A DNA stretch of 35,101 nucleotides, taken from the NCBI GenBank assembly GCA_020445315.1, contig JAGRGW010000020.1:1-35101 (forward strand). Reading direction: 5' to 3'. The notes below the pieces were generated by a model. The model saw only the letters and a list, made by a program, of their open reading frames with translations. It did not search any database and was not told the origin of the DNA. Every line of letters starts with the position of its first letter. Positions within the stretch are counted from its first letter, which is position 1. The DNA comes from Gammaproteobacteria bacterium (GTDB taxonomy: Bacteria; Pseudomonadota; Gammaproteobacteria; Chromatiales; Chromatiaceae). A program made the position numbers and the translations under genes. Positions 7,048 through 35,101 of this stretch are shown here, piece after piece.

Positions 7048-9167
7048 ACACGCTGAAGCACCCGTTTTCCAGACAGCTGCTGCTTGCCATCGCCTGGTTG
7101 CTGTCCGGCCTCACCGTCGCTGCAGCAGGGGGTGCCGTCCAGGTCGGTGACGTGATCCGGGTGTCGCTGCCCGGCGAACCGGCACTCGACAAGACCTTTG
7201 CCGTCGACCGGCAGGGCCGCATCCATCTGCCCGAGGTTGGTGCGATCAACCTGGCTGGACTCGACGAGGCCGCGATGGCGTCGAAGGTCCGGGCCACGCT
7301 GGCCACCGCGTTCCGCGATCTCGCCAATCTCGACGTCTACATCCACGAGCGCAAGCTGTTGATCAGCGTGACAGGCTACGTCCAGCAACCCGGTGAGGTC
7401 CTGCTGCCCGCAGGTGCCGGCATCCAGATGGCACTGCGCGCGGCTGGCGGGCTCCGCAAAGGCGCGCAGCTGGACAAGATGCAGCTGAAGCGTGGCAGCC
7501 AATCCACGGCTTTCGATTACAAACGCTATCTCGACAGTGGCGACACGGATCTGCTGCCACCCTTGACATCACTCGACACCCTGTTCGTGCCGGCATCACC
7601 GATGATCGGCAATATCGAGGTCGATTTCGACCAGGCGAAGATAGCCGACGCTGGTGACGCGGCTACCGACCGTGCCGCCATCAAGGTATTCGGTGAAGTG
7701 AACCATCCGGGCAGTTTCTCGCACAAGGCCGATATCAGCCTGGTCGACCTGCTGATGCGGGCCGGCGGTGTCACGCGGCATGCCAGCGTCGACCAGATCC
7801 GCGTGATCAGCAATGGCGAACCGGTACTGTTCAACCTCAAGCGCTATCTCGACAGCGGCGATACCGGGCTGCTGCCGGCCATCATCCCCGGCGCGACGGT
7901 TTTCGTGCCGCGGCAGGACGAATCGGTCAAGTCAGGTGCCAACACGGTGTATATCATGGGCGAGGTGTTCAAGCCGGGCGCCTACGAAAGCCCGGCCGAT
8001 GCCTCGTTCATGGACATCCTGGCCAACGCCGGTGGCCCGACGCGTTTCGCCGAATCACGGCAGATCCGCATCATCCGCGCCAACGGCCAGGTGGCTTCAT
8101 TCGATCTCGCGGGGTTCACCGAAGGGATGCGTCGCGGCATCGTGCCCAACGTGCAGCCCGGGGACGCGATATTCGTCCCCGAGAAGACCGATGTGAACGA
8201 AAAGTCCTGGCTCAAGGTGGCGCCCAACCGCGCCGTCCGCGTACTTGGTGAAGTCGAGCGACCCGGACGCGTCGAGTGGTCCGACGAGATGTCGCTGATG
8301 GACCTGCTGGCCCATGTCGGTGGTCCGCGCGGCGGTGCCGACACGGCCAATATCGAGATCGTGACGCCGACCGCCGACGGCGGAACCCGGGCGATGACAT
8401 TCGATCTCGATGCCTTCATCCGGCGGGGCGGCGGCGACAGTGAACTGCCGAAGATCGTTGCCGGCAGCACGATCCGGGTGCATGACCTGCCGGAAGACCC
8501 GACCGACAACAAGTCACAATGGGTCCGGCAGTCGTCCGACAGCTCGATCTACGTATTCGGCCAGGTCGGCGCACCGGGACGCTATCGGTTTACCGACGAC
8601 ATGCACTTTCTCGACATCCTGTCGGCCGCCGACGGCCCGACCGGTAGCGCCGACCTGCACAACATCCGCGTCAGCCATCGCGACGGCAAGACCGCCCGCG
8701 TCAGCCGCCTCAACCTGGCGTTGTACTTCGAGACCGGCGACGAAAACCTGCTGCCGAAAGTCCGGACCGGCGACACCATCTATGTCCCGGAACGTGACCG
8801 CAGCTGGCTCGACCAGCCCAAAGAACAGACCATTCGGGTCCTCGGCTCGGTCAACAAGCCCGGACGCTATGCCTTCGACGACAGCATGACGCTGCTGGAC
8901 CTGCTGGCCGAGGCAGGCGGCCCGAGCGAAGACGCTTACGTCGAAAAGATCACGATCGTCAACCTGTCGTGCTGCCGCAACCAGGCACGCACGTTCGACC
9001 TGGTCGAGTTCAGCAAGACGGCGGACTTCAACAGGCTGCCGGTCATTCGCGCCGGCGACACGGTCTATGTCCCGAACGAGGGCCAGAGCGTATTCGAAAA
9101 GGCCCGGGTGGCCATGGACGACGTGTTCAAGATCATCTCGATCGCGTCACTGCTGGGGGTCCTGTAA
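7044..9167 (+). CDS. Polysaccharide export protein (OPX/Wza family) with six SLBB repeats (SypC-like)
   Basis: Predicted outer-membrane or periplasmic channel component of EPS export (707 aa). A Sec-type signal ends near AAAGGA (residue 30); there is no lipobox Cys. The Poly_export domain (about 32-103) begins VGDVIRVSLPGEP. Six SLBB-type repeats follow, near residues 104, 212, 301, 397, 501 and 596, each with a core like VLGEVERPG and ending in a (G/D)G(P/G)-type turn. E. coli Wza is about 380 aa with two such repeats, so this protein is unusually long. The C-terminus (KIISIASLLGVL) is short and hydrophobic rather than a clear Wza-like barrel helix. It is coupled to both neighbours by 4- and 1-base overlaps. 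Confidence 0.88.
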   Translation: MNTLKHPFSRQLLLAIAWLLSGLTVAAAGGAVQVGDVIRVSLPGEPALDKTFAVDRQGRIHLPEVGAINLAGLDEAAMASKVRATLATAFRDLANLDVYIHERKLLISVTGYVQQPGEVLLPAGAGIQMALRAAGGLRKGAQLDKMQLKRGSQSTAFDYKRYLDSGDTDLLPPLTSLDTLFVPASPMIGNIEVDFDQAKIADAGDAATDRAAIKVFGEVNHPGSFSHKADISLVDLLMRAGGVTRHASVDQIRVISNGEPVLFNLKRYLDSGDTGLLPAIIPGATVFVPRQDESVKSGANTVYIMGEVFKPGAYESPADASFMDILANAGGPTRFAESRQIRIIRANGQVASFDLAGFTEGMRRGIVPNVQPGDAIFVPEKTDVNEKSWLKVAPNRAVRVLGEVERPGRVEWSDEMSLMDLLAHVGGPRGGADTANIEIVTPTADGGTRAMTFDLDAFIRRGGGDSELPKIVAGSTIRVHDLPEDPTDNKSQWVRQSSDSSIYVFGQVGAPGRYRFTDDMHFLDILSAADGPTGSADLHNIRVSHRDGKTARVSRLNLALYFETGDENLLPKVRTGDTIYVPERDRSWLDQPKEQTIRVLGSVNKPGRYAFDDSMTLLDLLAEAGGPSEDAYVEKITIVNLSCCRNQARTFDLVEFSKTADFNRLPVIRAGDTVYVPNEGQSVFEKARVAMDDVFKIISIASLLGVL

Positions 9168-20156: not shown

Positions 20157-20169
20157 TACCCTGTTGATT
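20157..20169 (-). promoter_or_regulatory. Candidate IHF site
   Basis: On the minus strand AATCAACAGGGTA matches WATCAA-N4-TTR with one mismatch, and lies between enhancer copy 3 and the sigma-54 promoter. It is suggestive only because copy 1 has a similar site at the same relative place. Confidence 0.3.
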
Positions 20170-20197
20170 GATAAAGGATATTTGGAAGCCGATAATC

Positions 20198-20213
20198 TGG
20201 CATACAGTCTGCT
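20198..20213 (+). promoter_or_regulatory. Sigma-54 promoter of the sensory/regulatory operon
   Basis: TGGCATACAGTCTGCT has GG at 20199-20200 and GC at 20211-20212, 10 bases apart; the -12 box is CTGCT. The predicted start near 20224 leaves a 22-base leader with GGAG before ATG 20246. Confidence 0.8.
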
Positions 20214-20245
20214 CTTGTCCCGCCGAAACCGGTTGGAGAGACCCC

Positions 20246-21190
20246 ATGTACGTCAGTTGTCTGAATTCGCATCACACGGAAAGGCGCGGGTACCGTGCCG
20301 CGCCTGCGACAGTTGCAGGACGCGGCCGGCCCGGCGCACGGGATTCCTGGCAGCGTCTGGTCCGTCTGGTCCGTCTGGTCCGTCTGGTCACCATCAGTCT
20401 GATCGTTGTCGTCATGAGCACATCGACCGCCAGCGCCGGCCAGGTGTTGACGTTCGGCGTCGTACCGCAGCAATCGGCCAGCAAGCTCGCCCGCCTGTGG
20501 ACGCCGATCGCGCAATATCTCGGCGAAACGACCGGCCTCGACGTCCGTTTCGCCACGGCACCGGACATCCCCGAGTTCGAACGGCGCCTGGCCCGCGGCG
20601 AGTACGACCTGGCGTACATGAACCCTTATCACTTCGTGGTGTTCAACGAAAAGCCCGGCTATCACGCCCTGGCCCATGCCAGCGACAAGCGGATTCGGGG
20701 CATCATCGTGACGCGCAAGGACAACCCGATTACCGAACTGCAGGCGCTGGACGGCCAACGCCTCGCGTTCCCCGCTCCCGCTGCCTTTGCCGCGAGCATC
20801 CTGACGCGCGCCAAGCTGGTCTCGCTTTCGGTGGCGTTCGAACCGGTCTACGTGTCGTCGCACGACTCGGTCTATCGCGCGGTCGCCCAGGGCCTGTTTC
20901 CGGCCGGCGGTGGCGTCATGCGGACATTCAACAATGTCGACCCGGCCATCCGTGAACAACTGCGAGTGCTCTGGACGACCGACGGGTTCACCCCCCACGC
21001 GATCGCCACCCATCCCGAAATGGCCGACACGGTAAAGGCCCAACTGACCAACGCGCTGGTCGGCATGGCGCAGGACGCGAACGGCCGCGACCTGCTTCAG
21101 GCTATCGGCCTCAAGGGATTCGAGGCTGCCGACGATGCCGCCTGGGATGACGTTCGCCACCTGCAGCTGAACCTGCTGGGCGACCTGTGA
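20246..21190 (+). CDS. PhnD-like periplasmic phosphate/phosphonate-type binding protein
   Basis: Periplasmic substrate-binding protein (314 aa) of the phosphate/phosphite/phosphonate (PhnD) family. After a long basic N-terminus and a hydrophobic segment (about residues 49-60) there is an AxA-type cut site (STASAGQ). The mature part has VLTFGVVPQQSASKLARLW, YDLAYMNPYHFVVFN and ALDGQRLAFPAPAAFAAS, all typical of PhnD-like proteins. No permease or ATPase gene is nearby. Instead a membrane hybrid kinase starts 19 bases after the stop, so it probably feeds a ligand signal to the kinase. ATG 20246 has GGAG upstream; the frame also extends to 20168 without support. The N-terminal region contains four RLV repeats. 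Confidence 0.85.
   Translation: MYVSCLNSHHTERRGYRAAPATVAGRGRPGARDSWQRLVRLVRLVRLVTISLIVVVMSTSTASAGQVLTFGVVPQQSASKLARLWTPIAQYLGETTGLDVRFATAPDIPEFERRLARGEYDLAYMNPYHFVVFNEKPGYHALAHASDKRIRGIIVTRKDNPITELQALDGQRLAFPAPAAFAASILTRAKLVSLSVAFEPVYVSSHDSVYRAVAQGLFPAGGGVMRTFNNVDPAIREQLRVLWTTDGFTPHAIATHPEMADTVKAQLTNALVGMAQDANGRDLLQAIGLKGFEAADDAAWDDVRHLQLNLLGDL
20354..20389 (+). repeat. Four exact copies of a 9-bp tandem repeat (CGTCTGGTC)
   Basis: CGTCTGGTC is repeated four times without error, in frame, encoding RLV four times just before the hydrophobic core of the PhnD-like protein's export signal. Gain or loss of units would keep the frame but change the basic n-region. Confidence 0.95.
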
Positions 21191-21209
21191 TCAGGGCAAT
21201 GGCCCAACC

Positions 21210-24200
21210 ATGAGCTTCCGCCTGAAGACGATCCTCGGCATCGCGCTGATCGAGGTCATCCTGCTCATCGTCCTGGTGACCATGAGTCTCGGCTACCTGT
21301 CAGACTCCAACGAAAAGCAACTGAGCTACCGGGCCAACAGCATCGCCCAGTTATTCGCGAAATCGGTCCAGGATGCCGTGCTGTCCTACGACCTCGCCAC
21401 GCTGGACAGCCTGGTCCAGCACCTGCTGACCGACCCGGAGATCGTCTACATCCGCATCGCCAATAACGACCAGGTCCTGGCCATGGGCGGTGACGAACGC
21501 CTGCTGAACCAGGACAGGACACAGGATGAACATCTGTCCGAGGTCGAGGATGCCGTGTTCGATGTCGAGGTCAATATCGGGGAAGCCGGGCAGCGCTACG
21601 GCACGGTTGCGCTGGGGCTCTCGACCGGCGTCATCGACGAGCTGATCGGGGAAGCACGGCGGTATATGTCGAGCATAGCGCTGGGCGAAGTGCTGCTGGT
21701 CGCGCTGTTTTCGCTGGCGCTGGGCACCTACCTGACGCGGCAGCTGCGGCAGCTGGAGCTGGCCAGCACCTCGATCATCGAACACGGCCCCGGTCACCAG
21801 ATTCCAGTCCAGGGTAACGACGAGATCGCGCGCACCCTGCGCGCGTTCAACGACATGTCGGCCAGCCTGGCCATGTCGTCGAGCGAAAGCGAACGCACCA
21901 AGGAGGCCTATCGACAACTCGCATTCATCGCCTCGAGCAACGAAGCCATCGCCAAGGCCACGCTGAATGCCTGCCTCGACGGGATCGTGACCATCGACGC
22001 CAAGGGTCACATCGTCGAATACAACGGTCATGCCGAGCAGATCTTTGGCTGGACGCGCGCGGAAATGATTGGCACCAACATGGCGGAAAGGCTGATCCCC
22101 GCGACAATGCGCGATCAACATAACGCCGGCATGGCGCACTACCTCGCGACAGGAGAAGGCCCCGTATTGAACAAACGCCTGGAGCTTCCCGCGCTCGATC
22201 GAAACGGCGAACAGATCACCATCGAGATCTCGATTGCACCGATGACGTCACAGCACGAACCGCTGTTCACGGCATTTATTCGCGATATCAGCCAACAGAA
22301 GGAGGCAACCGAGGCGATCGAGCAGGCCAGGCTGGCGGCGGACCAGGCCAACCGGGCCAAGTCCCGCTTCCTGGCGACGATGAGCCACGAGATCCGCTCC
22401 CCGCTGAACGCCGTGGTCAACATGAACGAGCTGCTGCTGGAATCGCCGCTCGACGAAAAGCAGCGGGAGCTGGCGCGCATCGCCCACGAGGGCGGACTTA
22501 CCCTGATGTCGTTGATCAATGACATCCTCGATTTCAGCCGGATCGAGTCGGGGAAACTGCTGCTGAACGAGCACGCCATGCCGATCAAGCAGGTCGTGCA
22601 ATCGGTGGTCGAGCTGCATTCGGGCATCGCCTACCGCCGGGGTATCTGCCTGCAGGCCGTCATTCCGCCAGCGCTCGATCGACAGGTGCTGTGTGACGAA
22701 ATGCGTTTCCGCCAGGTCATCACCAACCTCGTCAGCAACGCCTTGAAGTTCACCCATGCCGGTGGTGTCGTCTTGCGCGCGGCACTGGACGGGGATCCGG
22801 GCTTTTTCTGTGTCAGCGTCAGTGACAGCGGTGAGGGTATCCCGACATCCCGTCACCAGGAGATTTTCCAGGAGTTTCACCAGCTGGAAGATGAAAACAG
22901 CCGCCGTTTCGCTGGCAGCGGTCTCGGGTTGGCCATCACTCACCGTCTCGTTGGCTTGATGGGCGGCGATATCACCGTGCAGAGTCAACCGGGCCTGGGC
23001 AGCACGTTCACGGTACGCCTGCCACTGAAGGAAGTGCCGGACGCAGTCGCCGTGACTGTCGATCCGCCGGGCTGTCTCGACACCGATGCCGTATTGTTGA
23101 ACATTGACAATCCGGTACTACGCACGGCGTTAATCGACTTGTGCGAGGCCTGGGGCATCCCTGCACTGACGCCGGAATTCGAGGCCGCGCGGATCCAGTC
23201 GGATTGGCGACACTTCACGATGATCGTCGACGCGGACCCGAACGGTGAAGCATTGCCGATGCACCAGCTCAAGGCGCGACAGATTGCCCCCGCCGGTCAA
23301 TGGCGCTATGTCACGGTGGCGCCACTGGAAACCGGCGCATCCACCAAGGCCCCCGGCTACGCTGCCGTATTGCGCACGCCGATTCGAGCCGAGTCACTGA
23401 TCCGGTTCGTCTGCCATCAACCGTGCAACAGTTGCATTGACCAACCCCGGCCGATCGTTGCCAACGAACAGCAACGCTCCGGCATTCGAGTACTGCTGGT
23501 CGATGACAGTGATGCAAACCAGGCCGTTGGCCGGGCCCTGCTGTCGCGGCTCGGCTGCAACGTCGAGACCGCCGACGACGGCCAGGCTGCGATCGAGCTG
23601 GCAGCGCGCCAGCGATACGACATCATCTTCATGGACCTGGCGATGCCGCGCATGGACGGCATCGAGGCCACGGAAATTATCCGCGGCCAGCATGGACCAA
23701 ACCAGGCAACACCGATCGTCGCACTGACGGCCAATGCCTTTGCCGAGGACCGCGCCAGCTGCCTGTCCAGTGGAATGGACGACTTTCTTGCCAAGCCGAT
23801 CGACCGCGCCGAACTGCAGGCCATCGTCACCCGCTATCAGACGCAGAAGGTCGAGGAGACAGTGCCACGCACATCGGTCGAATCAGCGCCACAACCGAAG
23901 CCGCCCAGTAGCGACGATGCACCGGAACTGGTCGATCGGGAGACACTGCAAAGACTCACCCGCGACACCTCGCCCGAGGCCGTCCGCGAAATCCTCTCGA
24001 TCTACCTGGGTGAAGTGACGCAGCGGATACCCGACATGCTGTCGCAATGCCAGCGGGGCGACATCGAAGCGCTTGGCAGCGAGGCGCACGCACTGAAGAG
24101 CAGTTCGGCCAGTTTCGGTGCCGCACACCTGGCGGCATTGGCCCGCGATATCGAACTGGCTGCCCGCGAGTCGCGATTGGACGATCTCGAGCAGCTGACG

Positions 24201-24275
24201 GCCGACCTGGCCACAATTGCCGATGCCTCGGTCGAAGCACTTGATCGCTACCGGGAAGGCCTGGGCGATGGATAG
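21210..24275 (+). CDS. Hybrid sensor histidine kinase (TM-sensor-TM-HAMP-PAS-HisKA-HATPase-REC-HPt)
   Basis: Inner-membrane phosphorelay kinase (1021 aa), the SypF/RscS-like part of the system. Order: membrane helix 7-32; periplasmic region about 33-152; second helix about 153-175; HAMP-like linker; PAS about 255-375 (DGIVTIDAKGHIVEYNG); HisKA with phosphoacceptor His393 in FLATMSHEIRSPLNAV; HATPase with NLVSNALKFT, VSDSGEGIP and GSGLGLAI; a degenerate receiver-like region about 620-740; a true REC with Asp809 in IIFMDLAMPRMDG; and an HPt domain with His960 in EAHALKSSSASFG. The His-Asp-His chain is complete, so the next acceptor should be a separate REC protein, most likely the regulator at 25800 or the REC of the SypE-like protein. 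Its stop overlaps the next gene by 8 bases. Confidence 0.92.
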   Translation: MSFRLKTILGIALIEVILLIVLVTMSLGYLSDSNEKQLSYRANSIAQLFAKSVQDAVLSYDLATLDSLVQHLLTDPEIVYIRIANNDQVLAMGGDERLLNQDRTQDEHLSEVEDAVFDVEVNIGEAGQRYGTVALGLSTGVIDELIGEARRYMSSIALGEVLLVALFSLALGTYLTRQLRQLELASTSIIEHGPGHQIPVQGNDEIARTLRAFNDMSASLAMSSSESERTKEAYRQLAFIASSNEAIAKATLNACLDGIVTIDAKGHIVEYNGHAEQIFGWTRAEMIGTNMAERLIPATMRDQHNAGMAHYLATGEGPVLNKRLELPALDRNGEQITIEISIAPMTSQHEPLFTAFIRDISQQKEATEAIEQARLAADQANRAKSRFLATMSHEIRSPLNAVVNMNELLLESPLDEKQRELARIAHEGGLTLMSLINDILDFSRIESGKLLLNEHAMPIKQVVQSVVELHSGIAYRRGICLQAVIPPALDRQVLCDEMRFRQVITNLVSNALKFTHAGGVVLRAALDGDPGFFCVSVSDSGEGIPTSRHQEIFQEFHQLEDENSRRFAGSGLGLAITHRLVGLMGGDITVQSQPGLGSTFTVRLPLKEVPDAVAVTVDPPGCLDTDAVLLNIDNPVLRTALIDLCEAWGIPALTPEFEAARIQSDWRHFTMIVDADPNGEALPMHQLKARQIAPAGQWRYVTVAPLETGASTKAPGYAAVLRTPIRAESLIRFVCHQPCNSCIDQPRPIVANEQQRSGIRVLLVDDSDANQAVGRALLSRLGCNVETADDGQAAIELAARQRYDIIFMDLAMPRMDGIEATEIIRGQHGPNQATPIVALTANAFAEDRASCLSSGMDDFLAKPIDRAELQAIVTRYQTQKVEETVPRTSVESAPQPKPPSSDDAPELVDRETLQRLTRDTSPEAVREILSIYLGEVTQRIPDMLSQCQRGDIEALGSEAHALKSSSASFGAAHLAALARDIELAARESRLDDLEQLTADLATIADASVEALDRYREGLGDG

Positions 24276-25799
24276 GATCCGGCTGGAGTCGCAAGGCGCC
24301 TGCAGTCTCGAACGCGTCAGCGAAGTACGACGACTGCTCGACACCGTCAGCATGGCGGCGGGGGCATCGGCGTCTTTGCGGGCGCGGCTCACGACCTGCT
24401 TCAGCGAGGCCGCGACCAACATCGTTCAACACGCGTCACCGCCGGCCACCTCGCTGCTGGTCCAGCTGGGGCAGAATCACCGCGAGTGGTGGCTGGCGTT
24501 GACCAGCAACGGGGGCCACCCCGGCGACACCGCCCGACGGGCGACCGATGCCACGGCTACGCACGGTCGTGGCCTCATGATCCTGGACGAGCTGGCCGAC
24601 GAGTTCAGCGTGTCCCGCGTGGGTCCGAACCTGGTCCGCACGCAGCTGCGATTCACACGCAGTGACCGCGACAGCCTGCCCCGCGTTCTCGTCGTCGAGG
24701 ACGATCCTGCGCTGCGCGCGCTGTACCGGCACTACCTGGAAGACGATTTCCTGGTCACCAGTTGCGCCGACGGTTCCGAGGCGCTCCGGGAGATGCGACG
24801 AGAGTCGTTCGACGTGTTCCTGTCTGATATCCATATGCCGGACATGGATGGTTTCACCCTGCGTCAGAAACTGCTGGACGATGCCGAGACCGAGTTGGTG
24901 CCGTTCCTGTTCCTGACCGGAGAAAACGACACGGCAACGCTGGCACTTGCGCAACAGATGCTCATCGACGATTGCCTGTTGAAGCCGGTAGACCGTCCAC
25001 GGTTGATCGCGGCCATCGAAAGAGCCATGCTGCGCAAGCGGCAACTGTTGCAGCGACTCGGAGGGCGGCTGGTGCGCAGCATCGGCGGCGTTGTACCCGA
25101 AACGCGGCTCGACAGCTCACCGGCCTGGCACGTAGCCAGCGGTTCACGTGGGAGTGGCGAGGGAGGCGGCGACCTCATCATCGAACACCGAATCGGCGAT
25201 ACACGCATCGTCGTGGTCGCCGACGTCATGGGCCATGATGCCCAGGCGAGGTTCTTTTCCCTGAGTTACAGCGGATTCATTCATGGGCTGTTCGCGGCCA
25301 CTCGCGAACCTCTCGCTCCGCACGTCATCATGGGCGCACTATCCGACGCGATCAGTCATCACGGACTGCTGCAGGCCTCGATGTTGACCTGCTGCGTCCT
25401 GGTGCTGCACCCCGGTGGATGCATCGAATTCTGTACCGCCGGCCATCCGCCGCTGCTGCACCTGACCTCGTCCAACGTTGAGCCGTTGTCGACCGGGGGC
25501 GCGTTGCCCGGCCTGTTTGACGGGGCCACCTACCGATCTTCGTCGGTCATGCTGCAACCGGGCGAGCGACTCGCCGCCTATACCGACGGCCTGTTCGAGA
25601 GTGCGGCGACTGTCGCAGGCAGGGAGCAACTCGAAGAACAGGTCCTGCAGGCCATCCGTGACGCGGCCCGGCTGACCGTTCGCGACGCCGTTGACAGGGT
25701 CATGCACACGTTCGACGCGTTCGCGTCGCCATCCTCGCGCGATGACACCACACTGGTCATAATCGAGCCCCGGTCATCCACGCAACAGGCAAACCGCAG

Positions 25800-25806
<7 letters not shown>
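24268..25806 (+). CDS. RsbW-like kinase / REC / PP2C phosphatase protein (SypE-like)
   Basis: Three-domain regulator (512 aa) with the same architecture as Vibrio fischeri SypE, which phosphorylates and dephosphorylates the STAS protein SypA. Residues 1-130: HATPase of the RsbW type, with N-box Glu47 and Asn51 in [13 protein letters not shown] and GRGLMIL at 100-106. Residues 138-258: REC with Asp187 in [13 protein letters not shown]. Residues about 285-505: SpoIIE-type PP2C with [36 protein letters not shown] and [10 protein letters not shown]. The G1 box reads SNGG where Asp is normal, so kinase activity may be weak. ATG 24268 has GGAAGG upstream and overlaps the kinase gene; longer starts lie deep in that gene. 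It overlaps the next gene by 7 bases. Confidence 0.9.
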
Positions 25807-27214
<1,408 letters not shown>

Positions 27215-27224
<10 letters not shown>

Positions 27225-28072
27225 ATCAGTTCCGACCACCGCCCGGCCACCTTCAGGCGGTCACGGGTCATGACCCACAACTCGTCGGAACCGGCCGCGA
27301 AACGCATGATTTCGTCGAAGCGCTCGGCAATCTTGCCCAGGCCGGCGAGGTATACGTAGGTATCCGGCGACTGGATCAGTTTCCAGATCGACGCCGCGTG
27401 CGACTCGGTCGCCGCGGCCAACGTGTCCGCCTCGCTCGCCAGTGGTTTGCTGATGACACCGCGGAAAGCCTGGAACGATGGCTCATCGTAGTACAGGGCC
27501 AGGTCGTCCTCTTCGTCGTTGCGGTAGAGCAGGTCCATACCGCTGCGGGCACCGTAGTACAAGCGTACCTGGCCCGACCAGCCGCCACGCTGGCGGTAGA
27601 TTTCCTGGATGAAGCTGCGGAACGGTGCGACACCGGTGCCGGTACCGATCATCAGGATGTTTGCGGTCTCGTTGCGTGGCATGCGGAACGGGCTGCGATA
27701 GGGCCCGGTCAACGTGATCGCCTGGCCCGGGCCGGCGTCGCACAGGTAGTTCGACGCGATGCCCGGGTACGACTCGCCGCTGATCTCGTCGATGTCGAAA
27801 CAGCGTCGCACCAGCAGCTCGATTTCGGTATCGCCACGACTGTCGACCGACTCGCCGGCAATCGAGTAGCGCCGCATGTGGTACCTGTTGCCGAACGGAT
27901 GCGGACCGGGGACGACCACGCCGACACTCTGGCCGACACCGACACGGAACGAGGGATCCTCGACGCGCATGCGGATGCGCCGCACCTCGGCCAGGTCCAC
28001 GCGGCTGATACGTACGCTGTCGGTCACGATGGCCTCGCTGACGGGGCCCAGTTCGTTGATTCGCTCTTGCAT
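27215..28072 (-). CDS. Plant-type ferredoxin-NAD(P)+ reductase family flavoprotein
   Basis: Soluble FAD enzyme (285 aa) that moves electrons between NAD(P)H and a one-electron carrier. The FAD domain (about residues 20-140) contains [11 protein letters not shown], the RxYS flavin motif, and a plant-FNR-like long loop; the nucleotide domain has [32 protein letters not shown] and [14 protein letters not shown]; it ends near an aromatic residue (WSELIYS), as in plant-type FNRs. It is the last gene of the nifJ-rnf run, 3 bases after the small Cys-rich gene, with GGGAG before the ATG. Context suggests it links the ferredoxin pool or the Rnf complex to NAD(P)H. There is no fused 2Fe-2S domain as in NqrF. 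Confidence 0.87.
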
Positions 28073-28075
28073 GCT

Positions 28076-28321
28076 CTACTCCCTGCCGATGGCCTGGACG
28101 CCGGGTATGTCCGCCAGGCTCACCGTCGTTGATTGGGTTTCGGATCCCGGCGTGCTGCAACTGCCCCCCGAACAGGAACAGCCCCCACCGCAACCGGGCT
28201 CCGGACGAAATGGCCCCAGTGCCGGGTGGTCGTTGGCGAAACGCCTGTAGCGGTGCTCGACGTACTGCCACCCCGTCAGCACGGCAAAGATGACGCCGCT
28301 GGTCAACAGGAACTCGATCAT
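28076..28321 (-). CDS. Small single-helix Cys-rich membrane protein in the rnf cluster
   Basis: Not recognised as a known family (81 aa). Residues 3-20 form one membrane helix, followed by a basic stretch (EHRYRRF), then a Gly/Cys/Ser patch with Cys at 44, 48, 50 and 55 (CGGGCSCSGGSC), then a polar tail. A metal or Fe-S site is plausible. It sits directly after rnfA, where rnfB or, in nqr operons, nqrM might be expected. NqrM is also a small one-helix protein with four Cys that helps build the iron site of NqrDE, relatives of RnfE and RnfA; sequence identity is not claimed. ATG 28321 is preferred to GTG 28330 because GAGAAGG then lies at a proper distance. Confidence 0.7.
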   Translation of the reverse strand: MIEFLLTSGVIFAVLTGWQYVEHRYRRFANDHPALGPFRPEPGCGGGCSCSGGSCSTPGSETQSTTVSLADIPGVQAIGRE

Positions 28322-28334
28322 GGTTTGCACCTTC

Positions 28335-28916
28335 TCATGCGCCGAGCCCGGCGAAACCCATGAACGCCAGCGACAGCAGGCCGGCCAGCATCAGGCTCAT
28401 CGCTGCGCCCTGGCTGACGGCCGGTACATCGGCCAGTTCCAGTTTTTCGCGCAGCCCGGCCATCAGCATCAGGGCCAGCGTGAAACCGGCCCCCGCTCCG
28501 AGCGCATAGACAACGCTTTGCACGAAGTCGTACTCCTTGGCCGTCTGGAACAGGGCCAGGCCCAGGATGGCGCAGTTGGTCGTGATCAGTGGCAGAAAGA
28601 TACCGAGACTGCGGAACAGCGACGGACTGAACTTCTTGATGAACATCTCGACCAGTTGCACGGCCGAGGCGATGACGGCGATATAGCAGATCAGCCGCAG
28701 GAACATCAGGTCGAGCTCGCCGAGCACCCAGTTGATCGCGTAGGCCGACATCGAGCTGACCAGCATGACGAACAGTGTTGCCAGACCCATGTTCCAGGCC
28801 GTTTCCTTCTTGGACGAGACACCGAGAAACGGGCAGATGCCCAGGAACAGCGCCAGCACGAAGTTGTTGACGACGGCGGCATTCAGAAAGATGAAACCCA
28901 GTGATTCACCCTGCAT
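28335..28916 (-). CDS. rnfA: Electron transport complex subunit RnfA
   Basis: Six-helix inner-membrane subunit of the Rnf ferredoxin:NAD+ oxidoreductase / ion pump (193 aa, the same length as E. coli RsxA). Clear motifs are VVNNFVLALFLGICPFLGVS, with the Cys of the buried iron site, and LPLITTNCAILGLALF, with the second Cys. ATG 28916 is chosen over GTG 28925 because AGGAGG lies nine bases upstream of it and would touch the GTG. The start overlaps the end of rnfE by 11 bases, so the pair is translationally coupled. RnfA and RnfE form the inverted-topology heart of the complex. Confidence 0.95.
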   Translation of the reverse strand: MQGESLGFIFLNAAVVNNFVLALFLGICPFLGVSSKKETAWNMGLATLFVMLVSSMSAYAINWVLGELDLMFLRLICYIAVIASAVQLVEMFIKKFSPSLFRSLGIFLPLITTNCAILGLALFQTAKEYDFVQSVVYALGAGAGFTLALMLMAGLREKLELADVPAVSQGAAMSLMLAGLLSLAFMGFAGLGA

Positions 28917-29565
28917 GAGGTGCACCCTCCTGTTGCAGCAAGCGCTGGTCGCGACGCTGCTTCAGCCAGGCAAACAGCAGCAGCCAGGCCCCGAGCACGA
29001 AGAACCCGCCCGGCGGCAGGATCATGACGACCCACGGCTGGAAATCCGCGGGCATGACGGCGTAACCGAGCAGCGTGCCGTTGCCGAGCACCTCGCGTAC
29101 CGTCCCCAGCGAAAGCAGCGCCAGCGTGAACCCGGCCCCCATGCCGAGGCTGTTGACCAGCGTCGTATGCAGGCGCTGCTTCGACGCGTAGGCCTCGGCA
29201 CGACCGAGGATGACGCAGTTGGCCACGATCAGCTGAATGAAGGCACCGAGCGCGTTGTACAGATCGAGGCTGATGGCCTGGATCGCGTAGTCGACGACGG
29301 TGACGAAGGTCGCGATGATGACGATATAGCTGGCGATGCGAACCTGCTTCGGGATCAGGTTGCGGATCAGCGAGATCAACACGCTCGATGCCACCAGTAC
29401 GAACGTCGTCGCCAGCCCCATCGCAATAGCATTCATCGTCGAGTTGGTCACGGCCAGCACCGGGCACATGCCCAGCAGCATGACGAACACGGGATTCTCT
29501 TCCCACAGCCCGCGCAAGAAGGTATCGAGGCTGAGTTTCTCGGTCTGGTTGGGTAGCCCGGCCAT
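28906..29565 (-). CDS. rnfE: Electron transport complex subunit RnfE
   Basis: Second six-helix core subunit (219 aa), homologous to NqrD and paralogous to RnfA. Seen: ENPVFVMLLGMCPVLAVTNS and LIVANCVILGRAEAYASK, giving the two conserved Cys of the shared iron site, and NSLGMGAGFTLALLSLG. The tail is basic and soluble (LKQRRDQRLLQQ). The open frame runs upstream to 29889, but ATG 29565 matches the family N-terminus and forms a TGATG overlap with the rnfG stop. Confidence 0.95.
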   Translation of the reverse strand: MAGLPNQTEKLSLDTFLRGLWEENPVFVMLLGMCPVLAVTNSTMNAIAMGLATTFVLVASSVLISLIRNLIPKQVRIASYIVIIATFVTVVDYAIQAISLDLYNALGAFIQLIVANCVILGRAEAYASKQRLHTTLVNSLGMGAGFTLALLSLGTVREVLGNGTLLGYAVMPADFQPWVVMILPPGGFFVLGAWLLLFAWLKQRRDQRLLQQEGAPHAG

Positions 29566-30257
29566 CAGTCCGCCCCCCCTTCGTTGGTTTGGGTCCTGAT
29601 ACGATCCAGTTCGCGCTGCAACAGCGGTGCGGCGCGTTGCAGACTGCGGTTGATCGCGTTGGCGACGGCAACCGACGAGATCGTCGCACCGGCGATGGCG
29701 TCGACCTGCCAGTCGTGCGTCTTCCTGCCGTGCTTGACGGCGACGATGGTGTTGGCGAGGCCATCGCCGGCGCCGTTCAGGCGTGCATCGAGCGTGTCGA
29801 AGTTGGCCAGAAAAGCGGGATCGAATGCGATCTTGTCGCCGAGCCCCGGCGTCTCCGTCATCTTCAGGATCTTGATACCGCGCACACATTGGCAGGACGG
29901 GTCGTAGCCATACAGCAGCTTGACGATGTCCTGGTAGCCCTGCGCGCCGGCGGCCAGCGCCACGCCCTTCAGCTCACCATCACCACTATAGGCGGCATAG
30001 ATCACCTCGCCGTCGCTCCCGGACGTTGCGAGACCGCTGTCCGTCAGCACCCAGTCGCTGCGCGACGTGGCACCGGGCACGACCTGGAATACCGCCTGTT
30101 CGATGGCGACCCGCTGGTTCTCGGCGATGATCGGCTTTGTGAACTGGAACACCAGGACGACGAGCAGGCCGGACAGCATGGCGATCGCACCCAGTGTTCG
30201 GACCATGCGGAAACCGAGCGTATTCTGCGCCACCGGCGTTGATGCGATGTCGCTCAT
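29565..30257 (-). CDS. rnfG: Electron transport complex subunit RnfG
   Basis: Periplasm-facing flavin subunit (230 aa) with one N-terminal membrane helix (about residues 22-42) and an FMN-binding domain. AIAGATISSVAV contains Thr192, the residue that carries covalently bound FMN in RnfG/NqrC proteins. GIKILKMTETPGLGDKI is the other family signature. An extra Cys pair, SCQC near residue 122, stands out in the periplasmic domain. It overlaps rnfD by 4 bases and rnfE by 1. Confidence 0.94.
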   Translation of the reverse strand: MSDIASTPVAQNTLGFRMVRTLGAIAMLSGLLVVLVFQFTKPIIAENQRVAIEQAVFQVVPGATSRSDWVLTDSGLATSGSDGEVIYAAYSGDGELKGVALAAGAQGYQDIVKLLYGYDPSCQCVRGIKILKMTETPGLGDKIAFDPAFLANFDTLDARLNGAGDGLANTIVAVKHGRKTHDWQVDAIAGATISSVAVANAINRSLQRAAPLLQRELDRIRTQTNEGGAD

Positions 30258-31336
30258 GAGGCACCCCCGGTCGATCCGGCACGTGTTGCAGACCGTTCGC
30301 GCCCCTGCTCACCATAGACACGCGGCTGAGTCCACGACGCAATCAGCGGCGATGCGGCGTTGGCCAGCAGGATCGCGTACATGACCCCTTCCGGCAGGCC
30401 ACCGAACAGGCGGATGACGACGGTCAGGACGCCGATCAGTCCGCCGTAAATCAGCGCACCCCGCGCCGTGACCGGCGATGCGACCATGTCGCTGGCCATG
30501 AACCACGCACCGAGCATCAGTCCGCCCGAGAACCAGACGAAGAATGGCGACGGAAACAGGTGATCGTCGACCAGCCACAGCGGCGTCGCGACCAGCGCGG
30601 CCCCCGCCAGCACGCCGAAAGGGATACGCCAGTCGAGCATGCGCCGGGCCGCGAGGTACAGCCCCCCGGCCAGGATCAGCAGTGACGAGGCCTCGCCGGC
30701 CGAGCCCTCGATATTGCCGAACATCAGGTGGAAGGTATCGATGTTGATGTGTTGAAACTTCTGCAGCGCCAGCGGCGTGGCCCCGGTGAACCCGTCGATG
30801 TTCAAGGCCTCGATCCAGGCATCGACCGGGACCGGCTGCATGAACGGCAGCGTGAACGTCGACGGGATGAACTCGCTGAAGCGTCCGGGCGCGAACGCCG
30901 GCGTCCAGGTCGTGATCGCGACCGGGAATGCGGCCTGGACGAAGGCGCGGCCGATCAGGGCCGGGTTCATGACATTGAAACCGAGACCACCGAACAATGA
31001 CTTGCCGAGCGCGACCGCGACGAAAGCCGCGACTGCCGCCATCCACAAGGGGAAACCGGGTGGCAGTGTCAGCGCCAGCAGGATACCGGTGATGACGACG
31101 CTCCAGTCCTTCAGCGTGTTGCCGCGACCGGACAGCGACGAGAACAGCTGTTCAGTCGCCATCGCCACTGCCGTGGTCGTCAGCACCAGCGCCAGCGCGC
31201 TGATACCGAACTGGTAGACCGAGAAGGCGACGATCGGGAGCAACGCGTAAACGACGTTGCGCATGATCACGTCGACGGTCTGCGGTCGTTTCAGGTGCGG
31301 CGCGGTGCGGATCTCGACAGGCTTGTTACTGAACAT
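30254..31336 (-). CDS. rnfD: Electron transport complex subunit RnfD
   Basis: Inner-membrane flavin subunit (360 aa) of the NqrB/RnfD family with about ten helices. Thr187 in GFTGATPLALQ is the covalent FMN site, at the same number as in characterised RnfD proteins. GFPLWMAAVAAFVAVALGKS and NVMNPALIGRAFVQAAFP are the expected conserved stretches. The longer frame starts with TTG 31342; ATG 31336 is preferred because GAGG lies about eleven bases upstream. The gap to rnfC is 10 bases. Confidence 0.95.
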   Translation of the reverse strand: MFSNKPVEIRTAPHLKRPQTVDVIMRNVVYALLPIVAFSVYQFGISALALVLTTTAVAMATEQLFSSLSGRGNTLKDWSVVITGILLALTLPPGFPLWMAAVAAFVAVALGKSLFGGLGFNVMNPALIGRAFVQAAFPVAITTWTPAFAPGRFSEFIPSTFTLPFMQPVPVDAWIEALNIDGFTGATPLALQKFQHINIDTFHLMFGNIEGSAGEASSLLILAGGLYLAARRMLDWRIPFGVLAGAALVATPLWLVDDHLFPSPFFVWFSGGLMLGAWFMASDMVASPVTARGALIYGGLIGVLTVVIRLFGGLPEGVMYAILLANAASPLIASWTQPRVYGEQGRERSATRAGSTGGAS

Positions 31337-31346
31337 GGCCAACCCC

Positions 31347-32702
31347 TCAACCCGCCAGTGCCGTCTGCTCCCGGTTGATCGCCTTGGCGATCCGGAAGTA
31401 CTGGGTCAACGGAATGTTCGACGGGCAGACATAGGCGCAACAGCCGCACTCGAAGCATTGGTCGAGATGATAGTCAGCGGCCATCGTCGCGTAGTCGCGC
31501 TTGCGCGCCAACTGGCCCAGCATCGACGGGTTCAGGTGCATCGGGCAGGCCTCGACACAGCGCGAACACTTGATACACGGGTACACCTGGCGACGCGACT
31601 GGTCGGCATCACCCTGCGCATAGACGACAATGCCGGACACACCCTTGGTGATGGGCACATCCAGCGATGCAACCGTCATTCCCATCATCGGGCCACCGAG
31701 GATGACCTCGTTGGCCGTTTCGTCGGCCTGCGCCTGCTCCAGCAGGAACGAAACCGGCGTACCCAGCGGCACGAGGTAGTTGCCGGGTTTACGCACACCT
31801 GGCCCCGATACCGTGATGACACGCTCGATCAGCCCCCTGCCCCGCGGCAACAGTTCGCCGATCTGCGCCAGCGTACCCACGTTGTAGACGACGACGCCGA
31901 GATCGGCCGGCAGACCGCCTTCCGGGATCTGCCGGTCCAGCAGCGCCTCGACCAGCATCTTTTCGGCGCCCTGCGGGTAACGGGCCTGCACCGCGTGTAC
32001 CGAAACCATGTCGCCTTCCGCCAGCCGGTCGCTGATGGCACCGACGGCATCCATCTTGTTGTCCTCGACACCGATCAGTGCCTGCACCGCACCGGTCGCA
32101 CGCATCATGAGCCGGACACCGCGCAGCAGGGCGTCGGTCTGTTCGAGCATGACGCGGTGGTCGCAGGTGAGGTACGGCTCGCACTCGCAGCCGTTGACCA
32201 GCAGCGTGTGGATCGGAAGGTTGCCCGGCGGCTGCATCTTGACGTGGCTCGGAAACGCAGCCCCGCCCAGCCCGACGAGGCCGGCATCCTTGACCGCCTG
32301 CACGATGTCCTTGCGCGTCAGGCTGTCGACATCGACCTCATCACCGAACAGGACCTCCTGGCTCGATGCCTGGTAGACATCGATGACAATGGCCGGCGAC
32401 TTCGGGCCCTCGGCCGTCGGCCACAGCTCGATCGCAGAAACGCGGCCAGTAGCCGGTGCATGCATCGGCACCGACACGTGCCCGTCGGCCTCGGCGATCG
32501 GTTCGCCGCGCACGACCTCCTGGCCGACATGCACGATCGGCCTGGCCGGTGCGCCCTTGTGCTGCGACAACGGTACGACGACCCTCGGCGCAAACGGCAG
32601 GCGGCGTATGGCCTTGCCCGCCGTCTGCTCCTTGTGATCGACCGGGTGGATACCACCGTGGGAGAAGGTGCCATCGGCGCGGAAGAGGTTGAGCAGGTTC
32701 AT
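31347..32702 (-). CDS. rnfC: Electron transport complex subunit RnfC
   Basis: Peripheral cytoplasmic subunit (451 aa) that binds FMN and NADH and relates to NqrA and the 51-kDa subunit of complex I. N-terminal GTFSHGGIHPVDHKE; flavin/NADH region with GLGGAAFPSHVKM and LLVNGCECEPYLTCDH; two C-terminal 4Fe-4S motifs, CIKCSRCVEACP and CFECGCCAYVCP. It lacks the long Ala/Lys-rich C-terminal extension of E. coli RsxC. ATG 32702 is chosen over a frame that runs to 32876 through repeats; GGAG lies eight bases before it. A 247-base gap full of inverted repeats separates it from nifJ. Confidence 0.95.
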   Translation of the reverse strand: MNLLNLFRADGTFSHGGIHPVDHKEQTAGKAIRRLPFAPRVVVPLSQHKGAPARPIVHVGQEVVRGEPIAEADGHVSVPMHAPATGRVSAIELWPTAEGPKSPAIVIDVYQASSQEVLFGDEVDVDSLTRKDIVQAVKDAGLVGLGGAAFPSHVKMQPPGNLPIHTLLVNGCECEPYLTCDHRVMLEQTDALLRGVRLMMRATGAVQALIGVEDNKMDAVGAISDRLAEGDMVSVHAVQARYPQGAEKMLVEALLDRQIPEGGLPADLGVVVYNVGTLAQIGELLPRGRGLIERVITVSGPGVRKPGNYLVPLGTPVSFLLEQAQADETANEVILGGPMMGMTVASLDVPITKGVSGIVVYAQGDADQSRRQVYPCIKCSRCVEACPMHLNPSMLGQLARKRDYATMAADYHLDQCFECGCCAYVCPSNIPLTQYFRIAKAINREQTALAG

Positions 32703-32820
32703 AAGGCACGCTCCGCGTCGTGAAGAGGGCAAAGGGCCGAGGGCCGGGGCACACGGGTCACGGACCGCGGGCCGCGGGCCAACTCTCTGTGCGGCCTTGT
32801 TGTCCGCCGCGGCGCACCCA

Positions 32821-32891
32821 CCGTCATTCTCGCGCAAGCGGGAATCTCCCGATCGTCGTGCACTGGATTCCCGCATTCGCGGGAATGACGG
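32821..32891. repeat. Large inverted repeat, dispersed REP-like element
   Basis: Left arm 32821-32847 and right arm 32865-32891 (27 bases each) are inverted copies with a few mismatches around a 17-base spacer. Each arm also contains its own short hairpin (such as CCCGCATTCGCGGG). Sequence of the GTCATTCCCGC / GCGGGAATGAC type is common as dispersed intergenic repeats in beta- and gammaproteobacteria. GC-rich GGGCC/GGCCC tracts flank it on both sides. Confidence 0.75.
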
Positions 32892-32927: not shown

Positions 32928-32954
32928 AATGAACGGATCAACGATCCGTTCATT
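32928..32954. repeat. Perfect 12-bp hairpin across the nifJ stop codon
   Basis: AATGAACGGATC (32928-32939) and GATCCGTTCATT (32943-32954) pair perfectly around a three-base loop. The nifJ stop codon (32950-32952, minus strand) is inside one arm. No U-tract follows on the minus strand. It could protect the nifJ mRNA end or partly stop transcription before rnfC. Confidence 0.8.
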
Positions 32955-35101
32955 GGTACTTCTCCGCCCGCTTCATCAGCTTCTCCGCGTCTTTCTCGTC
33001 GGCCCGCCATGGCGTGCCGGGGTGCAGACAGCCGGCCGTGCACTTCTCGGCGGCCTTGACGAGGTCCCGGTACGGCGAGCCCTGCGGGTCGATGACGACG
33101 GCCTTCTTGTCGTCGTTGTACCGGAAGGTCTTCGGCGCGATGTCGGTGCATTCATCGCAGGCCGTGCATTCGGGTGTCTCGAGCCAGACCGGTTCGTACT
33201 CCCACGGCAGGTTGGCGGCCGCCGGCAGCCCGGCAGGCACATCGCCCACGCCAGTGGCCGGCTCGGCCAGCAACGCGGACGCATCACCCCCATTGGCCAT
33301 GGCCAGCAGGCCGGCCGTGATCGAGCGCGCCATGTCGGCGCGGGTCTCGGCCCTGACCTGTTCGACGTCGACCTCGCGGTTCATGCCGACCAGCGATTTC
33401 AGCTGCTGCCAGAACTCGCGCCGTTCCTCGGTCGAGCGCACCAGTTCCTGCGCAACCAGCACGCGCATCAGCCGGTTCTTCGTATCGGTCGCCCACAGGT
33501 ACGGGAACCTGCCCTCGCGGTCGTTCTCGTCCAGGTCGATGAACTCGGCCAGCGGCACCATGTCGTCGTGCCAGGTCTCGGGAGGCGCCTTGCGGAAATG
33601 CTTGCGGAAGCGACCCTCGGTCAGGGCGAAATCGGCGAACGTCAGCGGCACCGTGATTCTGCCCTCGGCACCGTCTTCCTGCTGGTAGCTGATCGTGTAC
33701 TCCGGCCAGTCGGCATCGAGTGCCGGGTTGCCCTCGATCGTGCAGGCATCCTCGAACGCCACCCCGGCATCCGGGTCGTAGCGGAACAGCGGGTAGGCCC
33801 GCGACTCAACCGCCAGCTTCGACTGGTGCTGCGACATGGCATCGCCGACACCATGCTCCGGCTGGCACACCGCGTAGATGTTGAACAGTGCCGGCCGGCG
33901 GCTGTTGAGGCCGTCGATGTAACCCTCGAGCAGGTGCGTCGTGTGCGACATCGAGCCCTGCAACACGAACGACGTCCGGTGCGCCATGCCGATCAGGCCC
34001 ATTTCCTTGCGGATCTCGGTCTTGCCCTTCCAGGCCTTGCCGTACGGCGACATATCGGCGACTTGGCCGACGAAGCCCGATGTGCAGGCCTGACCACCAG
34101 TGTTCGAATAGACCTGGGTATCGAGCACCAGCACCTTGATCGGCATGCCCGAGGCCAGCGCACGCGACAGGTTCTGGAAACCGATGTCGTACATCGCGCC
34201 GTCACCGCCAACCGACACGACCGGCGGGCACAGCCGCCACTCCTCGTCGCTGAACTGCTTCCAGTCGAAATAGGTGAAGAAGCTGTCGTGTTCGGCCGCG
34301 CTGTACTTGCCGTCGAGTTCGAGCTTCGCCTGGCGGATCGCCTTGAAGCCCTCGGCCATCTTGCGCATATGGCCCTCGAAGATGCCCATCGCAACCGACG
34401 GCGAGTCCTGGAACAGGTGACTGGCCCACGGGAACGGGTACGGGTTGTACGGGAACGTCGAGCCCCACACCGACGTGCAGCCGGTCGCGTTGATGATGCC
34501 CATCTCGGCACGACCGTTACCTGTCTTGCCCTCGGTGTACTGCCACTTCAGGTAGCGCAACTTTTCCAGCAGCTGGGTGACCCGGCGCAGCCACTTCTGG
34601 TCGACCGGCTGCGCGCCGCCGGCCAGCTGACCGGACAGGTCCGACAGCGTCAGGTCGCCGTCCTTGTGCGCGTCGACCGCGGCGTCGATGCGGGCCACGT
34701 TGGACAGGTCCATGCCCTCGGCCAGTTTCAGCCGGACGTGGGTCTCCAGGCGATTGACCAGGTCGTCGATCTCGGCCAGGTGACGCTTGACCCGCGGCTG
34801 CATCAGCGCGGTGACGGTACCGGTAAACAGGTGAATGACGGTCTTCTCACCGCAACCCATGCAGGCGCCATCGCCCGACTGCAGCGACTGGTAGTTGTGC
34901 TTGTCGAGCAACAGGGTCTCGAGCGCGCCGATCTTCTCGTCGAGATCATCAATGCGGATGAATCCCGGGTCGGTCGTCGGCAGGTCGAGCCAGAAATCCC
35001 AGTCGCGTTGCATCTTCGCGACCGCGTCCTGCGTTTGCTTCTCGGCGACCAGCGCCTCGTCTTCACAGACCTCGATACACTCCATGCAGCCCTTGCAGGT
35101 A
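32950..35101 (-). CDS. nifJ: Pyruvate:ferredoxin (flavodoxin) oxidoreductase, C-terminal part; 5' end outside window
   Basis: Oxidises pyruvate with CoA to acetyl-CoA and CO2, reducing ferredoxin. The gene runs off the right edge in frame, so only the last 722 or so residues are seen. First is a 4Fe-4S motif (CKGCMECIEVCED), then the proximal-cluster start CMGCGEK, and the thiamine-diphosphate domain with VVSVGGDGAMYDIGFQN and YSNTGGQACT. The C-terminus carries an added ferredoxin-like module: CTACDEC, then TFRYNDDKKAVVID, then AEKCTAGCLHPG. This is a single-cluster ferredoxin pattern beyond the end of typical NifJ. Reduced ferredoxin would be the natural electron donor for the Rnf complex encoded next. 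Confidence 0.93.
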   Translation of the reverse strand, partial: TCKGCMECIEVCEDEALVAEKQTQDAVAKMQRDWDFWLDLPTTDPGFIRIDDLDEKIGALETLLLDKHNYQSLQSGDGACMGCGEKTVIHLFTGTVTALMQPRVKRHLAEIDDLVNRLETHVRLKLAEGMDLSNVARIDAAVDAHKDGDLTLSDLSGQLAGGAQPVDQKWLRRVTQLLEKLRYLKWQYTEGKTGNGRAEMGIINATGCTSVWGSTFPYNPYPFPWASHLFQDSPSVAMGIFEGHMRKMAEGFKAIRQAKLELDGKYSAAEHDSFFTYFDWKQFSDEEWRLCPPVVSVGGDGAMYDIGFQNLSRALASGMPIKVLVLDTQVYSNTGGQACTSGFVGQVADMSPYGKAWKGKTEIRKEMGLIGMAHRTSFVLQGSMSHTTHLLEGYIDGLNSRRPALFNIYAVCQPEHGVGDAMSQHQSKLAVESRAYPLFRYDPDAGVAFEDACTIEGNPALDADWPEYTISYQQEDGAEGRITVPLTFADFALTEGRFRKHFRKAPPETWHDDMVPLAEFIDLDENDREGRFPYLWATDTKNRLMRVLVAQELVRSTEERREFWQQLKSLVGMNREVDVEQVRAETRADMARSITAGLLAMANGGDASALLAEPATGVGDVPAGLPAAANLPWEYEPVWLETPECTACDECTDIAPKTFRYNDDKKAVVIDPQGSPYRDLVKAAEKCTAGCLHPGTPWRADEKDAEKLMKRAEKYQ

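Follow-up and report, generated by a model that had tools for sequence, protein, structure and literature searches.

A small cysteine-containing membrane protein encoded behind rnfA and tied to one Rnf lineage: a candidate accessory factor

The window, i.e. the whole 35,101-nucleotide stretch of gammaproteobacterial (Chromatiaceae) DNA that was analysed, encodes directly behind rnfA an 81-residue protein, ORF81, which is a real conserved gene tied to one Rnf lineage. ORF81 is most probably an uncharacterised, lineage-specific accessory protein of Rnf that would resemble NqrM in action, although the sequence comparisons do not identify it as NqrM. In the preferred reading, to which we assign by analogy a probability of about 0.5, it would be a dedicated accessory protein delivering iron or a [2Fe-2S] unit to RnfA/RnfE.

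ORF81 starts with an ATG at 28321, 13 nt past the rnfA stop, and the gene for an FNR-like flavoprotein reductase (FNR) starts 3 nt beyond its end. A sequence-only reading had described an unrecognised 81-aa protein with one membrane helix and cysteines at positions 44, 48, 50 and 55. The ORF at 28076-28321 and the exact cysteine positions were confirmed, and neither Pfam nor NCBIfam yielded a family for the product at E ≤ 1. The following features were located in and next to the gene.

28076 to 28321, minus strand: ORF81, candidate accessory/maturation protein of the PFOR-linked Rnf complex (from homologues, lineage counts, dN/dS and sequence)
28256 to 28318, minus strand: membrane helix of ORF81, residues 2-22, with Trp18 kept in 18/18 aligned members (alignment and AlphaFold2)
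28157 to 28195, minus strand: Gly/Cys tail of ORF81, residues 43-55, GCGGGCSCSGGSC (sequence and 18-member alignment)
28328 to 28334, minus strand: GAAGGTG, ribosome-binding-like, between the rnfA stop and the ORF81 start (read from the sequence)

AlphaFold2 returned a single confident helix (residues 2-31), both for ORF81 alone and with 18 aligned sequences, and gave the Cys tail low pLDDT values, under 60 for the single sequence and under 50 when the alignment was supplied. A PDB search at E ≤ 1 found no relative of ORF81, nor of one NqrM. All four cysteines lie in the Gly-rich tail, C-terminal to the helix. In the 18-member alignment of ORF81 and its closest homologues (type 1), Cys50 is invariant, Cys48 is nearly invariant and Cys44 is missing in four members; the first cysteine is likewise missing in 4 of 28 members of a larger type-1 set. 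The number of cysteines ranges from 3 to 5 with variable spacing in type 1, and a helix followed by at least three cysteines is constant in ORF81-type products.

The genes around ORF81, assigned by Pfam/NCBIfam and, for rnfA and rnfE, also by motifs, are as follows.

27215 to 28072, minus strand: FNR-like flavoprotein reductase
28335 to 28925, minus strand: rnfA, with a start further inside possible; Fe-site motifs LGICPF and TTNC
28906 to 29595, minus strand: rnfE, which probably starts further inside than listed; Fe-site motifs LGMCPV and VANC
29565 to 30257, minus strand: rnfG
30254 to 31342, minus strand: rnfD
31347 to 32876, minus strand: rnfC, ORF as listed, with the N-terminal ~60 residues outside the RnfC match
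32950 to 35085, minus strand: C-terminal part of pyruvate:ferredoxin oxidoreductase (PFOR) with a ferredoxin-like C-terminal domain, running off the contig

The full order of the cluster is rnfB-PFOR-rnfC-D-G-E-A-ORF81-FNR, and in this genome it is split over two contigs: the contig of the window ends inside PFOR, and contig C528 carries rnfB (7235-8110, named RnfB by NCBIfam) and, behind it where the contig ends, the start of PFOR (G000:C528:7235-9655, L146). Read alone, the window would wrongly suggest that rnfB is missing. A long RnfB is encoded directly upstream of PFOR in 17/17 type-1 stretches reaching that far, the genome of the window included, and rnfB also directly precedes the oxidoreductase gene in all three type-2 stretches (see below) fetched for the purpose. 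Of the 54 fetched clusters, 43 show the oxidoreductase on the stretch itself, the remainder being mostly cut by contig ends.

Homologues of ORF81 were found in 19 of 56 related genomes (own, genus, family and class). Genomes with an RnfA at least 71% identical to that of the window are exactly the same 19, and the other 37 are without ORF81; the next RnfA group shows 56-63% identity, and canonical RnfA proteins are lower. The stretches fetched around the 18 other homologues (L033-L050) all have the gene 3' of rnfA, although in L046 and L048 it was missed by the local search of the stretches and came from other searches. In the six of nine gene pairs with unsaturated dS, dN/dS was 0.17, 0.11, 0.13, 0.09, 0.28 and 0.22; the three saturated pairs include both that involve the gene of the window. 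First-order Markov shuffling, repeated 6700 times, produced an ORF with a transmembrane segment and three cysteines, starting at most 300 nt 3' of rnfA, in 28 cases, so that the real occurrences exceed chance.

With a profile of the type-1 family (alignment A1, from which the truncated G021 was left out), 14 of the 369 genomes of the class gave matches at E ≤ 0.001. Eleven of these are strong matches, every one of them linked to rnf genes; the three weak matches are G136, which is a type-2 cluster, and two that are probably due to chance. Three matches were obtained among 294 genomes of a phylum sample, namely the window's own genome, G652 (with rnfE-rnfA directly upstream) and one weak match containing a stop. 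Weak profile matches at G070:C8, G347:C89 and G473 were rejected as chance on account of in-frame stops, the first two also being without Rnf genes nearby, as were Streptomyces matches from a scan of named genomes (L021-L024), whose stretches contain no Rnf gene matches.

Type-2 clusters, in which RnfA is 56-63% identical to that of the window, carry another large oxidoreductase-like gene between rnfB and rnfC, its product sharing 26-31% identity with PFOR. A small protein with a helix and cysteines is encoded 3' of rnfA in eight of the nine type-2 clusters of the 56-genome set, and the ninth stretch stops 207 nt past rnfA. When compared as profiles, the type-1 and type-2 proteins matched over their full length (96.6%, and 97.9% with more sequences), and Trp18 is invariant in both alignments. 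In the type-2 stretches (L058-L066, L101 and L125-L132), NCBIfam names only a PorA-like part of the oxidoreductase. A malate dehydrogenase gene was seen 3' of type-2 clusters L101 (NCBIfam) and L127, L128 and L130 (by eye).

Since some of the clusters above had been located via ORF81 itself, the gene was also counted starting from RnfA alone in the 369 genomes of the class, with the lineage defined by an RnfA identity of at least 58% and G170 excluded as canonical. Among the matches listed, a small helix-plus-cysteine protein is encoded 3' of rnfA in 25 of 30 lineage clusters, 21 of them recognised by the A1 or A2 profile and four by DNA pattern only (G135, G282, G239 and G200:C5). No such gene adjoins rnfA in the other five (G351, G365, G070, G086 and G334), so that ORF81 is not strictly required in this lineage. 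In a set of fetched clusters partly chosen for having it, the gene is present in 48 of 54 (47 by script and L046 by another search). None of 14 canonical rnfABCDGE clusters has an adjacent ORF81-type gene, three script matches there being the ferredoxin domain of RnfB itself, and none lies within 300 nt of nqrE in two nqr clusters. An RnfA tree was built from 69 rows, L046 and L125 (partial RnfA) being left out; in it, the canonical clusters fall on one side of a branch with 98/100 support. On the other side, carriers of the small protein group together with scattered non-carriers, several inner branches being weak; because of this scatter, the non-carriers look like separate losses or replacements.

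RnfA and RnfE together hold a buried [2Fe-2S] site. The earlier statement that both proteins of this cluster keep both cysteine pairs proved correct, as each contains two intact Cys motifs (listed above). Of 71 rows, 69 have an RnfA with both motifs, the other two rows being partial; RnfE likewise has both in 69 of the 71, and of the remaining two, one stretch is without RnfE and the other is L092 from genome G116. In the latter RnfE (L092 8379-9032), the second Fe-site cysteine is a threonine (VVNTLIL); the genome is a single contig, and the ORF81-type protein is kept. The Fe-site cysteines of RnfA and RnfE are also kept in the five lineage clusters that are without ORF81 among the matches listed.

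Judged from sequence and gene order, NqrM (DUF539, PF04400) is the best analogue of ORF81, having the same layout and a similar place. Both are of the same length class, with one N-terminal helix followed by a Gly/Cys tail, both genes belong to an operon for an Rnf/NQR-type pump, and the target sites (RnfA/RnfE for ORF81 and NqrE/NqrD for NqrM) are homologous. Unlike NqrM, ORF81 has a conserved W..V and an HPE-GP linker between the helix and the cysteines, and its gene adjoins rnf genes, 3' of rnfA, whereas the NqrM gene lies beside nqrF/apbE. Kostyrko et al. are said to have found in 2016 that one cysteine (Cys33) among the four of NqrM is essential; the first cysteine of ORF81 would presumably correspond to it. 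According to the part of a review that we consulted (PMC12174285), NqrM seems to be needed for inserting the buried [2Fe-2S] centre into NQR. The genome of the window has a separate true NqrM, beside nqr genes on contig C229; NqrM was found in 6 of the 56 and 44 of the 369 genomes, and among the five lineage clusters without ORF81 among the matches listed, only that of G086 is in a genome that has NqrM.

The evidence does not place ORF81 within the NqrM family. The profile search against NqrM (DUF539) that the sequence-only reading had proposed as a check gave, in its Pfam part, no match at E ≤ 10 (HMMER filters on) for any of 18 family members. The GSCGG motif, present in 35/35 collected NqrM sequences (which were picked by a CGG-like pattern), is absent from ORF81, which has GCGGGCSC. 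Profiles of 28 type-1 sequences and the 35 collected NqrM were then compared with hhalign. With untrimmed alignments, type 1 matched NqrM at 93.8% over 59 columns, compared with 3.7 and 3.3% for the N-termini of RnfG and RnfB, respectively, as controls, and this score was reached by 0/129 shuffles of both blocks, 2/130 of the Cys block and 0/130 of the helix. The untrimmed type-2 set gave 83.3% over 23 columns against NqrM and 26.8% against RnfB, and a first, smaller comparison with NqrM had given 79.6%, over the helix only. When gappy columns were trimmed, the type-1 value fell to 61.6%, with 193/200 tail shuffles and 2/200 shuffles of both blocks scoring as well; the trimmed type-2 set gave 21.8% (shuffles as good, 18/200 and 165/200) and the trimmed joint set 92.0%, over only 15 columns (0/200 and 1/200). 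The type-1 similarity being high untrimmed and weak after trimming, what likeness there is to NqrM is suggestive and varies with the way in which the alignment is treated.

In the proposed mechanism, ORF81 would act as an accessory protein of the Rnf lineage whose operon is arranged as rnfB, a 2-oxoacid:ferredoxin oxidoreductase gene and rnfC-D-G-E-A. The helix would hold it next to RnfA/RnfE, with the tail facing the cytoplasm, a topology suggested because an Arg/His-rich stretch follows the helix. The Gly/Cys tail, predicted to be unstructured alone, may bind either iron or a nascent [2Fe-2S] unit, which it would pass on to the four-Cys intramembrane site of RnfA and RnfE, a task attributed to NqrM in the case of NqrD/NqrE. 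This delivery role is partly supported by the lineage link, the fixed place 3' of rnfA, the intact Fe-site cysteines, the NqrM-like layout and the untrimmed profile similarity to NqrM, and in these respects the earlier reading of ORF81 as a candidate NqrM-like Rnf maturation factor is supported. A necessary factor is not supported, given the lineage clusters without the gene (5/30 among the matches listed) and the canonical clusters of the same genomes, of which 0/14 have an adjacent copy. On the sequence evidence, further points against the delivery role are the failure of all 18 members to match Pfam NqrM, the weakness of the trimmed similarity and its independence of the order of the Cys block, and the missing first cysteine in 4/28 members. 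The five clusters that have no such gene beside rnfA yet keep the Fe-site cysteines, and G116, which keeps the protein despite the threonine in its RnfE, also count against it.

Among the alternatives, the one that survives best, though we think it rather doubtful, is that ORF81 is a permanent small subunit beside RnfA/RnfE that docks or wires PFOR or RnfB, its Cys tail being a redox or structural metal site. The strict link with the lineage having an oxidoreductase gene between rnfB and rnfC would fit such a subunit, as would the mid-operon position of the gene, 13 nt past rnfA and 3 nt before FNR. However, such variation in cysteine number and spacing (3 to 5 cysteines in type 1) is not usual in an electron-transfer cluster, 5/30 lineage clusters among the matches listed are without the gene, and the known entry subunit RnfB is present in all 17 stretches reaching it.

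ORF81 might also be a general iron handler for an operon rich in Fe-S proteins (RnfB, RnfC and PFOR) rather than a factor for the RnfA/RnfE site, which we regard as unlikely. The model here is the FeoB-associated Cys-rich membrane protein (PF12669), which, like ORF81, is small and has one helix and a Cys-rich tail. PF12669 was matched by 2/18 type-1 proteins (best E 0.63) and 2/8 type-2 proteins (best E 0.0038), but these matches are weak and below the curated cut-off. Unlike PF12669 proteins, ORF81 is linked to rnf genes in all examined clusters carrying it, and its gene adjoins rnfA, not rnfB or PFOR, in every one of them.

A small redox- or metal-sensing protein that controls the stability or activity of its Rnf appears more improbable still. 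The variable Cys tail would suit a sensor, and a paper on Clostridium ljungdahlii (PMC9124969) describes rseC as an Rnf membrane partner affecting expression; ORF81, however, has no sensor-like domain, and nothing supports this role directly. RseC (PF04246) is, like ORF81, a membrane protein linked to Rnf, but it is larger and has two helices according to that paper, and no Pfam match connects the two. RseC was found in 44/47 genomes with an RnfA/NqrE match versus 0/9 without one among the 56 related genomes, which is remarkable given that descriptions of this protein mostly present it as a regulator. Because it occurs in genomes both with and without ORF81, RseC may serve Rnf in general.

A reduced RnfB, encoded at the position that rnfB occupies in rnfCDGEAB operons, is hardly a credible identity for ORF81: a helix followed by CxxCx4C-like cysteines in some members (G019 and the type-2 set) and the absence of rnfB from the window itself had invited this reading, which fails with rnfB on contig C528 and was dropped once rnfB was found directly upstream of PFOR on longer stretches, a full-length copy lying there in 17/17 type-1 stretches reaching it, and ORF81, at 81 aa, shows 3% profile similarity to the RnfB N-terminus (alignment A4, two of 11 RnfB rows left out), whereas RnfB comprises a helix, an Fe4S domain and ferredoxin domains. 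A split NqrF composed of ORF81 and FNR was also dropped, because FNR is present in only 12/18 family stretches (some of which end at a contig edge) and because two clusters (L122 and L123) have FNR 3' of rnfA without ORF81.

Returning to the delivery reading, ORF81 may help the Rnf pump to acquire its iron, as a factor that has not been named before. Full-text literature searches yielded two papers that mention both Rnf and NqrM, and among the titles listed none was on an Rnf maturation factor. The consulted part of the review cited above (PMC12174285) names a [2Fe-2S] insertion factor for NQR only and leaves the Rnf route unexplained. The gene immediately 3' of rnfA, which is conserved, bound to its lineage and codes for a Cys protein with a single helix, is a concrete target for deletion. 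If the reading is right, it would explain why Rnf operons of this kind would require ORF81 for heterologous expression, and it would tie Rnf to 2-oxoacid:ferredoxin oxidoreductases within one operon. A tentative extension, which could easily prove wrong, is that every Rnf/NQR lineage relies on a small membrane factor of its own to load the [2Fe-2S] centre that lies between the two half-subunits: NQR on NqrM, the oxidoreductase-linked Rnf on ORF81 and its type-2 counterpart ('RnfM'), and canonical Rnf on another, perhaps RseC.

The operon plan of the ORF81 cluster is the same as that of rnf2 in the Solemya velum symbiont (rnfBCDGEA, with PFOR between rnfB2 and rnfC2), as described in an excerpt of PMC4287430; unlike in the ORF81 cluster, a small gene after rnfA is not mentioned in that excerpt. 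A PEP synthase gene was seen 3' of several type-1 clusters (L095 by NCBIfam; L094, L096, L100, L115 and L116 by eye), a neighbourhood that suggests that the type-1 Rnf feeds reductive pyruvate synthesis. On the plus strand of the window, positions 20168-27224 encode a phosphate/phosphonate-binding-like protein, a hybrid histidine kinase, a SpoIIE-type response regulator and an NtrC-type regulator, and this set converges with the FNR gene, the ends overlapping at 27215-27224.
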